Assembly (NCBI GenBank): GCA_963969365.1 | Contig: OZ017746.1 | Location: 4,340,001 to 4,404,000 of the forward strand | DNA length: 64,000 bases | Direction of reading: 5' to 3' | DNA from: Asterochloris sp. CNOR1 | Lineage: Eukaryota; Chlorophyta; Trebouxiophyceae; Trebouxiales; Trebouxiaceae | Shown here: positions 56,529 to 64,000 of the stretch, piece after piece | Layout: each line of letters begins with the position of its first letter | Numbering within the stretch: the first letter of the stretch is position 1 | Position numbers and translations under genes: made by a program | Notes under the pieces: model-generated | Told to the model about the DNA's origin: nothing | Seen by the model: only the letters and a program-made list of their open reading frames with translations | Database searches by the model: none

Positions 56529-56601
56529 TCCCGTATGGTATAGGTGGTTAGCACACCCGTCTCTCACACGGGAAACCGGGGTTCGAGTCCCCGTGCGGGA
56601 A
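56529..56601 (+). tRNA. tRNA-Glu (anticodon CUC), copy 1
   Basis: A 73-nt cloverleaf: acceptor stem TCCCGTA pairs with TGCGGGA plus discriminator A; the D-arm contains GGTGGTTAGCA; the anticodon stem CCCGT/ACGGG encloses the loop CTCTCAC with anticodon CTC; the T-arm is CCGGGGTTCGAGTCCCCG. No intron. The anticodon and sequence fit a eukaryotic tRNA-Glu. Confidence 0.95.
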
Positions 56602-56829: not shown

Positions 56830-56902
56830 TCCCGTATGGTATAGGTGGTTAGCACACCCGTCTCTCACACGGGAAACCGGGGTTCGAGTCCCCGTGCGGG
56901 AA
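56830..56902 (+). tRNA. tRNA-Glu (anticodon CUC), copy 2
   Basis: Identical to the copy at 56529 over all 73 nt and on the same strand, starting 301 bp downstream. Both are preceded by the bases CAT, but flanking sequence beyond that differs, so only the gene body is duplicated or conserved. Confidence 0.95.
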
Positions 56903-57772: not shown

Positions 57773-57846
57773 GGTGGGTTCCTGCCCGACCCTGGCAGAG
57801 GGATGCTTGGCAGTGGCTTTGGTGCGTGCCGCCTCAAAGTGACATG

Positions 57847-57988
57847 CTTGATACGATATAAGTGCCTGTGAGTAGCAGCCTAACAGGCTGCATGTGAGGA
57901 ACCGTGCGGCAACCAGGCTTGATACGATATAAGTGCCTGTGAGTAGCAGCCTAACAGGCTGCATGTGAGGAACCGTGCGGCAACCAGG
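57847..57988. repeat. 71-bp perfect or near-perfect tandem duplication
   Basis: Two adjacent copies (57847-57917 and 57918-57988) of a 71-bp unit starting cttgatacgatataagtgcc. No differences were seen by eye, so the duplication is recent. It lies just beyond the proposed 3' end of the RBR gene. Confidence 0.95.
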
Positions 57989-58059
57989 CTGTGGTGCCTG
58001 CGGCCTCAGATGTGCACGCCTGACAAAGTTTGGGATGTGCTCTGGTGGAGACGCAGCAG

Positions 58060-61000
58060 TTAGAGCAAATGGGATCTGCACCTCAATGGCTGTCTTGCTG
58101 CGCTACTTGACAGCAGCCGACGCGCTCTGGGTCTGCTCCAGACCCTGGCCCCACTCTGTGGGCGATTGGTTGCCCGACCTGAGGGCATTGTCGCGCTGCA
58201 GCACCTTGGTGGTGCCCTGCTCGTCCTTGATCAGGGCAGCATCTGCAGGCAGCACCCCAGTCAATGCGCATGCAGGCCACTGAGTGCCAGGAAGAGAACT
58301 GCAGATAGCTTTGGATATGCTGTAAGCAAAGAGCCATGCTGTAGCTCTGTGTTTGTTGCGGGGCCACTGATAGGGAACTCAAGGCGGCTGCACACCCCTG
58401 ATGGGACAAATGGAGCGGTCTGTGGTGCGGTGGATGGGGGGCCTGGGAGGATTGGCGCGCCTGGTGCAGCCACATGGTTGTGGGCTTGACCTTGGGGACA
58501 AACACCTCATGGCAGAAGGCAGTGATGTCTCCATACCTCAATCTGCAACCAACTGGTGGCAGATGGATGAGGCTGGGGACCTCATGGCCTTCTACGACCA
58601 GGTGTTTGTCACCAAGGTCGAGCCCTCAGCCATGCGGCTGCACCAGGCCGTTGCAAGGCGAAGATGTCTCCATTCCGCTCGATCTGCAACCAACAGCACA
58701 TAAGCAGAGGACAAGCTCTGTTGCAATGATGGCAGCGCGGCTCCAGAGCGGTCGGTAGAATATAATATGATAGAGTGCACCACATCCCAAAGGCTTGCAT
58801 AGGACCCATTTGGCAGAGAAATTGTCTTCCTGAGTAGGCTCACTGGACTCAGGTGGTGAAGCTGATGCTGCATAAGGAGCCTGAGTCATAAGCAGGCTTC
58901 TGCCTGCACGAGTCGCAAGTGGATCACTCTGCACTGAAAGCAGCAGCCTGGCCTGCATCTTTATATTCACTCCCCGCGAGCTATCGCGCTCTCACCTGCA
59001 GCCCTTGCAGGCACTGTGCAAGCACCACCCTGCACAAGATGTTGCTCTCTGCATGGGGCTGGCACATGCTTTGCATTTCTATCTGCTTAAAGGACACTTG
59101 CGCAAGCTTTGGGCTTGAGCAAGTGTCCCTCGAGGAGCTAGAACGGCAAGACCATCGCCAGCTCCTCGCAGAAAGCAACATCTTGTACAAATACCATCGC
59201 CAGCTTGCAGCTGATTGACCTGCATGGTCGATGATCATGCTTGAGAGGCTGTGTTGGTTGGCTTGTTGCTGTGCCCTTGGACGCAGCAGCGCCTGTTGTC
59301 AGAGGAAGCACACACAACATACTGCTGGAAGCACAGACCTGGCGTTGCTCCAGCATTGGGGTGACCAGGCTAAGCAGGCGCACAACAACTGCCAGGATAT
59401 TTGAACAGCAGACCTGCAACCAAGTGCAGGCTGTCCTACCTCGCAGATGCCGTGGATGGCACACAACAGGAGCTGGTCGAGGGTGTCTGTTGTGCACCGG
59501 TGCAGCGTGCTCAGAAAACAACTGCTTGCATCACGTGCACACCTGCATGCACAGCCTGCAGCTGGGGGGACATGTAAACCAGGCGAGCCATGGATTGCAT
59601 CACTGCTGCCACCCAGGGACACCTCCTGTTGCAGCAGCAGCTACGCAGCAGCAGGATCCAGCACTCAAGTCACTATTGAGAGAGGTGCCAGCTGTTACCA
59701 GGAAAGCAGGCCTGCTCAGGAGGGCTGAGACAGGGGAGTTCATGCCTCAGCTGTGACGCCAGTTTAGGGGGCAGAGACCCAGTCGCAGCATGGAGTGAGC
59801 TGCCTCGCAGCGCGCTTCAGTCCCAGCCTCAGTCCATCACCTGAACGCAAGGCCCACTGCACATGGAGCCCTGCACAGTGCTTTGTACTGGACTTACTGC
59901 TCACCTGAGTCACATTATTCATGCGATCAGCGGGCTTGAAGTCCAGCCTGGCTGATAGGTCCAGCAGCCGGGTGAATGACAGCTTGAGCACCCTTCTCCA
60001 GGACAATCATGAACAAGGACGTGGCCTGGCTTCACAGGCACACCAGACTGCTGGCTGGCAGCCGGGGCCACATTGGGGCGGAAGCTGTGGGGCAGCACGA
60101 TCCCAGGCACAGGCGTCCACAAGGGCCGTGTCACGCCAAGGCTGCCTGCACAGGGGTAGGGAAACTGATTGCAGTCTTTGATCTGTCTGAGCTGGTGCAA
60201 GTGCATCATTGGAAGCCCTGAAGGCTGGGAACCTGAAGCATGCTCATAAGGGCGAGCGAAGAGCTATTGACAGGTGATGTATGTGGCACCGCTTGCGCAC
60301 ATCCAGTGAGCAAACAGCTTTGAGGGACAGCCAGACTTCTGTCAAGCTTTCAGCGAAGCAGGCACAGAAGTCTTGTGCTTGCTGCTCAACACATTTGTGC
60401 TGCTGGTCCTGCAGGTTAGGCACTGCAAAGGCCAAATGCAAGCAATACACAGCCTGCAACTACCTAGTGAGCATGATTGGGCTCAAACTCAGTCTGAGCA
60501 AATCAGCCTCACCTGTGCGCCCTGGCGGCAAGACAAGGGCTGGGGAAGCCAACTCAGTCCCCAGCCTGTGCGGCGAGGCCTACAGTCAGCGGCCTCTGCA
60601 TCAGTGATCTGCACAGCCTGGGGCTAGCCCTGCTGGGCAAAATTCTTGGTGAGATAGGCCAGATATCACACAGCAGTATGCCAGCTGCGTCCACCCGTGC
60701 AAACATGTAAACCTCTGTGAAGTCCCCTGCCCATGGGGGCCCTGCCCATTGGGGCCCTGCCCGCTAGCATGTGCAGCACAGCCATCTGGCACCACCCCTG
60801 CAGGACACCGGTGCGCTGCTGGAGTGAGCACACAGCGAGCCAGCAAAGCTCAACTGCCAGATGAGGGCAGCTCTTTCGCTGGCAGGCATTTGGACTTGAC
60901 AAAGACAAATTGGGAGTGTCCATGCAGAGCTGCACTCGCTCAAGATCCAGTGTGCGGGGCCCATCTACTCATTGGACCAGCCTGTCAGACACAGGTGATT

Positions 61001-63950
61001 GCTAGCTATGCAGTGCATGTGGACATGCAATCAGGTAGACTGTGCTTACCTGCAAGTCCCTCCCCTGCAGGCCTTAAACCCACAAGGGTGCCCCAGTGGT
61101 GCGTATACTGCTGTGCACAGGACATGCAGATGCAAGATGGCACGCTGATCACCGCCATTGTACGCCCTCAACCCTGCTGATGGCTGGCGTGCCGCCACTG
61201 CAGGCCATGACACGCAAGGGCTGCAGCGGCGCCCCCATGCCCAGGACATGCTGTTGCACTGTGACATGCTGCTCACCTGTGCTGTCCCTCGCCTGCACAC
61301 TGTCCACCCTACTGGTGGCTGGCGTGCTGTCCCCACAGGCCATGATGAGCAGGGGACACAACCCGGAGCCCGGTGCCCAGGCCACGGATCCAAAATATTC
61401 AACATCCAGCGCCACCTCTTCTCCATCGAGGACAAGATTGTCTTCAATGGAGACGAGGTGGCGCTGGATGTTGATTGGCAAGGCGGGCTCGTACCGCACA
61501 GAGGGCTCGATGACATTGCACATGTCAAAGGCGTACGACTCCAGCAGATCCAGGGTGGCTGGGAACATCACTCACGGCTGCACGGCAGGGCAGGGCGCCA
61601 TAACAATCCCAGAAGGGGCAGGACCACCAGATCCAGGACAGGTACACCCATTGAAGGCAAAGCAGATGGCCTGAAGCGCGTGACGGAGTGATGAGTGGCA
61701 CTGATGCAAACCCGATTTTGAGCAAGTTGAGTGGCGGGCAGGATCAAAGCGAGCTGCCATATGCAGACGGGATTGGAGGCAAAGTCAAGAGGCCCTCACC
61801 ATCTCACAACAGAGAGCTGTCGTCGCAGATGCGCAGGCCAGTACTACTGATGGCGGAGGAGCGGCGCGTAGGCAGTGCCAGCTTTGCCAGACTGCTGTGC
61901 AGAGGGGACTCCTTCCACAGGGATGCCCCTGTGGAAGAGATGCCCCTGTGGAAGGAGTCCCCACTGCACAGCAGTCTGACAGAGCTGGCACTGCCTATGC
62001 GCTGCTCCTCCGCCATCAGTGTGCTCTCCAGGGCCTGGTGGTACAGCTTGATGCCCTGCAGCAGCAGCAGCAGCAGCAGCAGCACGCAACATGAGCTTGA
62101 CAGCAGCTTGTTGATCAATGGCGAAAGCTCAGGTCAGCATTCGCTAAGCTGAGACTGGCATGACTGTTCTAGCCCCAACACCCCGCAACACGTCTTGAGG
62201 CTCTGCTGCTGCAGCACCTGCAGTTTCTTGTGGTCCACCAGCACCCCTGTCCAGCTCCAAGCACCCCAGTGGTGATGCGTTGGCCTGCAGTTGGTCTACT
62301 ATGATGGGGATGTCTGCTGGCTGTGGCCACAGCCAACAGACTGACCCAAAGTAAAGTCATGCAATCTGCAGGTGCACCAGCTGCAAGCCAGGCTGCATCT
62401 CGGCAGCACCAACCCTGCAAACCAGTCCCATCAACTTGTTTCCACGCGTCAACATAGCATGCTGGCAGGTGGATCCACTGCAGTCTCACCTGGACTCCTC
62501 CAGCACTCTCCTCATGCTGCAGGCCATCTGATGATGTGGGCAACCCCACCAGGCCGCTGCGTGATGTCACCCCGGAGGGCTGGGAGATGTGGTGCAAGGT
62601 TGAAGCCAGCAGTTTAGAAACACATGCAGCAAACCTGTCCAGGATGGCTTGCAGGATCTGGGGTCTCATGTGGATCAAGCATGATGAGGCCCACATTGAG
62701 AATAAGGAGAACACGTCGCCTTACTCTCAAGGGGGGACCCATCATCCTTTACGGACATGGTTCCCAAGATAGCACATGCTACCTTGGACAAGACCGATAC
62801 ATTGATTCCAGGTCACTCAGTTCTACCGTCCACCCCGGCGTCCAGCCTGGAGTGGCCTCTATGTTGTGGAAGATTCAGCCTGTTGGCTCACCTCCCAATC
62901 GGCTGGCAACAGCCTGTACACGCCGTCCTTATCGCAATGCTGCCTGCGCCATGCCAGCTGGCCGATGTGGACGGCAAAGTGCCTGGGCACTGGGGTTTTG
63001 CTCACAGCCTGTATGTGAGCCGCAAGTTGGTTGTGTGCCCCTTGCAGTGCGTGGCGGCGATTGTGGACAGCGCTGCTGTTGCAGTATGGCTGAAGCTGCT
63101 CTGTTTGTTGAGGCAGGTGCGCCGTCCTGGCCAGCTGGCGTCATTGTGCCCCCTGCCAGTCTCCACGTAGCACGGCTCAACCAGCCCACAGGTCTCCAGC
63201 AGGGTCCAAAGGGCGCTGATGCCACTGGTCAGCAGAAAACTCACCTTGCTGTGTCTGACAGGCCCAGAGGGGAGATGACCAGGAGTCTTCATCTCAGCAG
63301 CAAGGTCTGTTGCTGCTGCTGCACCGGCAGCAGCAGCAGCAGGCAAGATGTTGATAGGTTGATTGGTGCAGCCCTCTCGTGCAGCTCAACCTTTGGTAGC
63401 TCGCTCTGGGCCACATAAGGAGACTGACAAGCCAGAGAAGGGAGGCTCCTGATTTCTGGCAGAGAACTAGAGAGTCAAGCAGGTAGTCTGGGCGAGGGAT
63501 GACTTTTGAGTACCAGCCCTGACACAGGGGCCAGCGGCTGAAAGTGCACCAGCCGCTTGCACATGCACAAGCTGCAAGTCCTAGGACGTGCATTCCTAGC
63601 CTGACCAAGCAGGACAAAACAGAACCTGGGCTTTCTGTTTGACACTGAGCAGGCTGCAGGCAAGCTGTGTCCTGCTGCAGGTGCCACATAGGACTGGCTT
63701 GGATGCCAGAGCGCCTGAAAAGGGCAATCCAGTCAGGGGCACAACACACGGATTTGTGCCCATGCCTGGATTCCCCTCTTCAGGCGCTCTGGCATCCAAG
63801 CCAGGCAATACTGTGGGAAGGATGCCTTGAAAGACTTGATCCCCCACACCAGCATCTCCCTCACCTGCATCTGTCCCTGCAGATGAATGTGAGAGAGATG
63901 GTGGTCTGGGGGAGAGTGCAAGGGGCAGCTCATCCAGTGTCTGCTGGGGC
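58060..63950 (-). CDS. RBR: Retinoblastoma-related (RBR/MAT3-type) pocket protein, 5' incomplete, with fold-backs
   Basis: RB-family proteins bind E2F and gate cell-cycle entry in the nucleus. On the minus strand RB pieces occur in the right order. Possible RB-N domain: REMLVWGIKSFKASFPQYC (near 63860). Pocket A: LYHQALESTLMAEEQRIGSA to DSFHR (62055-61944), then LLESYAFDMCNVIEPSVRYE, NIQRHLVSIED and SVAWAPGSG (61571-61375). Pocket B: RRVLKLSFTRLLDLSARLDF (59995-59898, donor GTGAGC), LDQLLLCAIHGICE (59520-59437, donor GTAGGA), VSFKQIEMQS then QPHAESNILCRVVLAQ (59110-58999, donor GTGAGA), and YGDITAFCHEVFVPKVKP (58545-58470). A C-terminal exon near 58243-58117 (GNQSPTEWGQG) could lead to a stop at 58060. 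Five exons carry inverted copies of themselves, and the conserved follow-on after FHR is missing at its expected place, so the gene may be damaged or spliced unusually. Confidence 0.7.
58459..58648. repeat. RBR inverted repeat 1 (74-bp arms, pocket B end)
   Basis: Arms 58459-58532 and 58575-58648 are reverse complements at 61 of 74 positions, with a 42-bp spacer. The minus-strand arm reads YGDITAFCHEVFVPKVKP; the plus-strand arm reads GDLMAFYDQVFVTKVEPSAM. Both match the RB pocket B motif GDIIxFYNxVFVxxxKP. Confidence 0.9.
59034..59186. repeat. RBR inverted repeat 2 (74-bp arms, pocket B middle)
   Basis: Arms 59034-59107 and 59113-59186 match at about 56 of 74 positions around a 5-bp centre, best at the ends (13 of 13 outer bases; 15 of 16 inner bases). 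The minus arm reads PHAESNIL within an RBR exon; the plus arm reads LLAESNILYKYHRQLA. Confidence 0.8.
61401..61472. repeat. RBR inverted repeat 3 (36-bp arms, no spacer, inside pocket A exon)
   Basis: A palindrome of 72 bp centred between 61436 and 61437, with 32 of 36 pairs matching and the outer 18 perfect. Minus strand reads NIQRHLVSIEDNLVLDGEEV; plus strand reads NIQRHLFSIEDKIVFNGDEV. Confidence 0.95.
61847..62019. repeat. RBR inverted repeat 4 (76-bp arms, pocket A start)
   Basis: Arms 61847-61922 and 61944-62019 match at 71 of 76 positions. Minus strand reads LMAEEQRIGSASSVRLLCSG then DSFHR; plus strand reads LMAEERRVGSASFARLLCRG then DSFHR. The 21-bp centre contains further short cttccacagggg copies. 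Confidence 0.95.
62058..62084. repeat. (GCA)9 triplet repeat at an RBR splice acceptor
   Basis: Nine GCA units on the plus strand read as (TGC)9 on the minus strand, directly before the acceptor ctgcag of the pocket A exon starting at 62055. The triplet tract replaces a normal polypyrimidine tract. Confidence 0.9.
63696..63802. repeat. RBR inverted repeat 5 (49-bp arms, near N-terminal exon)
   Basis: Arms 63696-63744 and 63754-63802 match at 45 of 49 positions around a 9-bp centre; the outer 24 are perfect. Minus strand reads LAWMPERLKRGIQAWAQI; plus strand reads GWMPERLKRAIQSGAQ. Confidence 0.95.
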
Positions 63951-64000
63951 AAGGGATAGGCAGCAGGGAGAACAGCAGGGGTGCAAGCTCACACAGTGCA

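Follow-up and report, generated by a model that had tools for sequence, protein, structure and literature searches.

A palindrome-rich island in decayed copies of an RBR gene and a second gene, probably formed by repeated local template switching

Short-range template switching is usually regarded as rare, short, and scattered. In great apes, the published events are single inverted repeats with a median length of 12 and a maximum of 128, and the four-point model applied to them does not require a seed hairpin (PMC7954356). The locus examined here lies in a 64 kb window (C1:4340001-4404000) of the Asterochloris sp. CNOR1 genome assembly, which comprises 56.4 Mb in 21 contigs; positions without a contig name are window positions. 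The sequence-only reading of this window had claimed five near-palindromes between 58459 and 63802. All five were found where it had placed them, with arm identities of 75-94%, and they are the five longest inverted repeats of the whole window when arms up to 400 nt apart are considered.

Palindromes were called by BLAST self-comparison at a threshold of 45 bits. Ten first-order Markov sequences with the composition of the region yielded none at the same threshold, and the five near-palindromes are therefore not a product of chance. Four of them consist of an RBR exon segment and an inverted copy of that segment: 58459..58648 (arms 58459-58533 and 58574-58648, 83% identity; C9:624409-624501), 59031..59189 (arms 59031-59107 and 59113-59189, 75%; C9:624010-624076), 61399..61474 (arms 61399-61435 and 61438-61474, 92%; RB_A, C9:621254-621294), and 61846..62020 (arms 61846-61922 and 61944-62020, 94%; C9:620804-620872). 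The fifth, at 63694..63804 (arms 63694-63744 and 63754-63804, 92%), combines the segment C11:2282367-2282416 with its inverted copy. An RBR exon segment had been proposed for each of the five, but the last matches C11:2282295-2282607 instead. Two further palindromes lie in the window. One, at 62312..62341, is short (30 nt, 46.4 bits, barely over the threshold), and a search for a parent match to it found none; the other, at 63840..63913, lies inside the C11-derived copy and was absent from the earlier list.

Judged by DNA identity, tblastn, and codon analysis, the RBR sequence of the window (58354..62217, minus strand) is a partial pseudogene with introns, related to an apparently intact RBR at C9:620466-624607. 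The longest block shared by the two loci shows 77% DNA identity over 1399 nt, further blocks align as well, and exon-by-exon tblastn also pairs the window copy with the C9 exons. In a genome profile search, RB_A matches were found at three loci, on C9, in the window, and on C12; the two best are on C9 and are stop-free in a 310-residue frame, and the window match contains one internal TGA. The C9 exon translations match three RBR-type proteins at E <= 0.001 (among the 7997 best word-sharing candidates), all three of which carry PF11934 and one of which carries PF01858. The window copy has no other match in C9:612001-632000 beyond 620466-624607, and no window match to the N-terminal half of RBR (RB N-terminal domain), upstream of C9:620466, was found by DNA comparison or tblastn. 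Because introns are kept, the pseudogene was copied as DNA. Three introns differ from C9 at 64/258, 77/324, and 37/195 positions (19-25%), and the differences at codon positions 1, 2, and 3 are nearly flat (59/294, 47/292, and 59/295). Eight frameshifting gaps are spread over four of seven exon blocks, together with one stop; one of the gaps falls at the palindrome at 61399, which in the translated alignment stays in frame and adds a net 13 residues. A functional RBR gene at the window locus was rejected on the frameshifts, the stop, the flat codon-position divergence, and the missing N-terminal half. The C9 parent contains no palindromes. An RB-family gene with mirrored exons had been described; the RBR exons are indeed mirrored, but in a decayed copy, and the apparently intact gene sits on C9. 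Intact-parent status is independently supported for this C9 gene only, the other relatives discussed below being so called partly for lacking palindromes.

A decayed copy of a second gene starts at 63648, fills 63648..64000, and runs past the window to about 69.1 kb in window numbering (C1:4409.1 kb). Its relative lies at C11:2281.5-2285.1 kb and is matched from C11:2282295 onward; the C11-like segment at the start of the copy is present twice within it. The C11 stretch contains no palindromes, and a search for the identity of its gene gave no Pfam match above cut-off for any of seven queries (five peptides and two frames of unclear strand). By these alignments, the window locus forms the left-hand portion of an island of 10.6 kb, here island A, that is built of decayed copies of RBR and a C11 gene. 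It holds 13 merged palindromic places, seven in the window and six more reaching 68944, with nested ones at 68482-68944. The process had been thought to be confined to one gene; this does not hold, as the second gene copy is affected up to 69 kb and six other islands exist. The pattern is real and striking, but it had wrongly been taken to belong to a single working gene. An Rfam search of the whole window returned two tRNAs only, at 56529-56601 and 56830-56902 (plus strand), which have identical scores, lie 301 bp apart, and form a direct duplication outside island A. A perfect two-copy tandem duplication of 71 bp adjoins the island at 57846-57990.

Six further islands with palindromes were identified. 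Island B (C12:2170.2-2177.5 kb) was found via the RB_A family on C12, and islands C (C1:3773.9-3776.0 kb), D (C1:676.0-679.3 kb), E (C17:155.0-168.7 kb), F (C6:3331.5-3336.0 kb), and G (C9:69.5-75.2 kb) via DNA similarity. The seven islands are not independent, as they have pieces in common: RBR occurs in A, B, and C, an apparently non-coding piece in B through F, and a piece of a C4 gene in E, F, and G. Island D has its parts in the opposite order to B and C. The C4 relative has a weak exonuclease match that falls under the cut-off (RNase_T, E = 0.0017), and six palindrome arms of the C4-like gene in E, F, and G, compared for a palindrome inherited from a common ancestor, are 74-84% alike, about equally within and between loci. 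No palindromes were found in the relatives of the islands, namely the C9 RBR, the C11 stretch, C4:112.5-115.5 kb, and C9:2627-2630 kb. In the first 600 nt of island F (C6:3331.5-3332.1 kb), a palindrome-bearing unit is repeated in tandem with a period of 200 bp, and a palindrome has therefore been directly duplicated there recently.

The sequence-only reading had named random genome-wide occurrence of the palindromes, without relation to exons, as evidence against its interpretation. No such occurrence was seen: we found 57 merged palindromic places in the 47.2 kb of the seven islands and 2 in 284.6 kb of other DNA, a ratio of 172 that is somewhat inflated because the island edges were drawn with knowledge of the palindromes. 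Of this background, 143.4 kb come from C1, 33.5 kb surround the four relatives, 12.7 kb adjoin island B, and 95 kb consist of 38 arbitrary pieces of 2.5 kb, which were taken at round coordinates and are not random draws. Direct tandem arrays show no such rise, with four in the islands against 36 in the other DNA (ratio 0.67). The stretch C1:4320001-4398400, which includes window positions 1-58400, contains 21 direct tandem arrays in 78.4 kb and lacks inverted duplications, which is the reverse of the island. Near-identical reverse-transcriptase matches also occur in tandem clusters at C2:2275-2294, C4:3178-3197, C9:2161-2192, C13:577-604, and C15:1099-1125 kb, which we take to be possibly centromeric LINE arrays.

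The geometry of the palindromes was read by hand in nine events for which a relative could be matched to the inverted copy and to the flank on either side of it (four RBR, four C11-derived, and one C4-derived in island E). Each of them runs from normal sequence into the reverse complement of the adjoining sequence and then back into normal sequence. In six of the nine events, the sequence rejoins the parent no more than 10 nt from where it left, and in all nine it does so within 36 nt, the other three having offsets of 33-36 nt; at 59031..59189, the C9 coordinates pick up again at 624011/624012. Wherever a palindrome could be assigned a position on a relative, its arms are copies of adjacent local sequence. 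An inverted-repeat transposon (MITE) was rejected on this ground, as its arms would recur in copies scattered elsewhere and have no relation to the site. The inverted copy may precede or follow the original (S'-S or S-S'), and thus both directions of synthesis would occur. This geometry is that of the four-point template-switch model and excludes an inserted second gene, so that the earlier claim of local inversion and duplication of each segment is upheld. Template switching, proposed as the simplest inference, likewise fits best, with the inverted copy in place and the return near the departure point.

We therefore regard it as probable that neutral template-switch (fold-back) copying has occurred repeatedly in these decayed gene copies, at a locally extreme rate. 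The gene copies would have been made first, and the short inverted duplications would have been gained repeatedly afterwards in the non-functional copies. During replication or break repair, DNA synthesis may fold back or jump to the complementary strand, lay down about 15-130 nt as the reverse complement of the adjoining sequence, and rejoin the template at about the same position, after which the palindromes would decay neutrally. Their clustering could reflect a locally raised rate or a loss of removal. No pre-existing inverted repeat or seed hairpin was detected at 13 parental junctions (combined p = 0.98), and hairpin-seeded fold-back is therefore not supported. The offsets of 33-36 nt, and arms that are long relative to the great-ape events, count against the template-switch reading.

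Adjacent inverted copies are also the typical shape of fold-back artefacts, and the arms could in principle have arisen during assembly or library preparation. Such an origin is extremely improbable for these loci: the arms of the five reported palindromes mismatch at about 6-25% of positions, three of four dated palindromes carry private substitutions on both arms, and palindromes recur on five contigs. With arms so different, a fold-back assembly artefact is unlikely from the sequence itself. It is also conceivable that the copying of the genes, with its own template switches, made the mosaic and the inversions together in a single burst. Arm divergence in the 14 palindromes of island A is consistent with a single age (chi-square 17.6, 13 df, p = 0.17), as is that of island B (p = 0.16); in addition, yeast breaks are reported to acquire distant and inverted insertions together (PMC11724301). 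However, comparison with C9 gave 5 columns shared by both arms and 14 private at 58459, 9 and 14 at 59031, 4 and 5 at 61399, and 14 and 4 at 61846, with four more all-different columns at 58459 and three more at 59031. The contrast between 61846 and 58459 is significant (Fisher p = 0.003, or 0.0005 with all-different columns included), and the mean arm divergence of island A (163/984 pairs, 16.6%, nested palindromes being counted twice) is below the copy-to-parent divergence of 21.7-23.1%. We thus consider a single burst quite improbable, although arm-to-arm gene conversion could imitate these age signals. The earlier suggestion of events of different ages is partly supported: these two palindromes speak for it, but the arm divergence of the whole island fits one age. 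A further possibility is that gene copies are recognised as duplicates and suffer repeated breaks or faulty synthesis that leaves palindromes behind, as a structural counterpart of repeat-induced point mutation. The islands are decayed copies of genes found elsewhere, the one supported intact parent (C9 RBR) is free of palindromes, and palindromes were present in all seven islands reached by homology. Yet direct evidence for recognition is lacking, seven related islands do not amount to seven independent tests, some relatives were labelled parents partly because they are palindrome-free, and no point-mutation bias was seen. RIP-like mutation was rejected on C>T type changes numbering 823 against 848 of the T>C type over eight copy-parent comparisons. 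No cause of a locally raised rate was found in base composition, CpG observed/expected, or C>T balance, which in the islands equal the background, with CpG ratios of 0.27-0.40 in islands and 0.38 in the 38 background pieces; this counts against the template-switch reading as well. CpG sites change more often than others (214/889 against 604/7111); CpG depletion in the islands, however, does not differ from that of the genome at large, and special methylation of the islands was rejected on this match. Across the genome sample, CpG depletion is strong (observed/expected about 0.38) and accompanied by an excess of TpG/CpA, which suggests genome-wide CpG methylation. We see only a slim chance for duplicate targeting as such. 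The broader idea that a genome process specifically converts duplicated gene copies without function into islands full of palindromes, whether as a palindromising counterpart of RIP or as a chain that feeds itself, with each new palindrome stalling synthesis and seeding the next one, is somewhat less remote and still speculative. Relaxed constraint alone is hard to accept as the reason for the islands because the C9 introns are as diverged as the pseudogene and contain no palindromes, although selection against hairpins in introns may explain this.

Inverted copies of target genes are known to have given rise to plant miRNA genes and fly hpRNAs, and by this precedent the islands may be hairpin-RNA loci that are transcribed, feed Dicer and Argonaute, and yield small RNAs regulating RBR and the other source genes, with selection having kept the duplications. 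RNA silencing is possible in this genome because Argonaute (Piwi domain) matches occur at two places and both C11 and C13 carry matches to the RNase III domain. Predicted RNA folding of the palindromes is strong (z of -13 to -23 against mononucleotide shuffles). In addition, all four RBR palindromes are exonic, with a chance of 0.004-0.015 at hand-estimated exon fractions of 0.25-0.35 in a post hoc comparison; this counts against a blind mutation process, which does not predict it. If RNA hairpins were under selection, transitions that leave G.U pairs should outnumber those that leave A.C pairs on the transcribed strand. The GU:AC counts were 39:43 in island A, 12:13 in C, 21:21 in D, and 20:18 in E; island B gave 23:38 (p = 0.07), which on the plus strand runs against a G.U excess and amounts to a G.U lean for the minus strand, and island F gave 13:5 (p = 0.10). 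None of these six islands was significant at 0.05. When additional sequence from E, F, and G (82:62) was included, the pooled count was 210:200 (p = 0.66), with no G.U excess in the arms, and this figure is weaker than those per island because nested palindromes are partly double-counted and the transcribed strand may differ among islands. Near-perfect complementarity to the target was rejected for the RBR parent: 21-mers with at most two mismatches to it begin at 37 of 520 positions in four palindromes (20 sense and 17 antisense), compared with 235/1243 in three non-palindromic stretches, where they are commoner. Divergence from the parent is even slightly higher in the collinear arms (60/263) than in other exon columns (105/618, counts assembled by hand; p = 0.048). 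As there is no G.U excess, and the arms are no closer to the parent than the DNA next to them, selection for RNA hairpins is not seen in these alignments. As to the earlier proposal that the hairpins may affect splicing or yield double-stranded RNA, the RNAs are predicted to fold strongly, but nothing indicates selection for pairing or for a parent match, and we hold a function as hairpin-RNA loci to be rather doubtful.

A search of titles and the beginnings of abstracts found no description of palindrome islands in pseudogenes. Long local inverted duplications amassed in decayed gene copies, at about 170 times the sampled background, would offer a natural setting in which the control of this mutation type can be studied, and the islands would also bear on how the raw material for hairpin RNAs originates. 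They advise caution as well, as exon-bearing palindromes need not be regulatory loci or assembly errors.

When compared with known systems, the copy resembles RBR genes in that its exons and introns align with the C9 RBR, and it differs from functional ones in being frameshifted, stop-bearing, and without the N-terminal half. As in miRNA and hpRNA genes born by inverted duplication of their target, inverted copies of coding exons form hairpins; unlike those genes, the islands contain many separate small hairpins in a pseudogene, with no pairing selection and a poor match to the parent. The ancestral seed hairpin or quasipalindrome of bacterial-type template switching is not seen at the 13 junctions. 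Foldback inversions at yeast double-strand breaks are likewise templated inverted duplications located beside the site, and distant insertions with inverted pairs occur among them; they are mostly 5-34 bp, follow induced breaks, and use microhomology, whereas the events described here are longer, natural, and repeated, with no seed repeat detected (PMC11724301). Short-range template-switch mutations also lay down the reverse complement of adjacent sequence, return to the template, and leave foldable inverted repeats (PMC7954356, PMC8794818). The arms here, at about 15-130 nt, are longer than those of the great-ape events (median 12, maximum 128), and unlike known template switches, the events are packed in a few islands, with 13 places in 10.6 kb.
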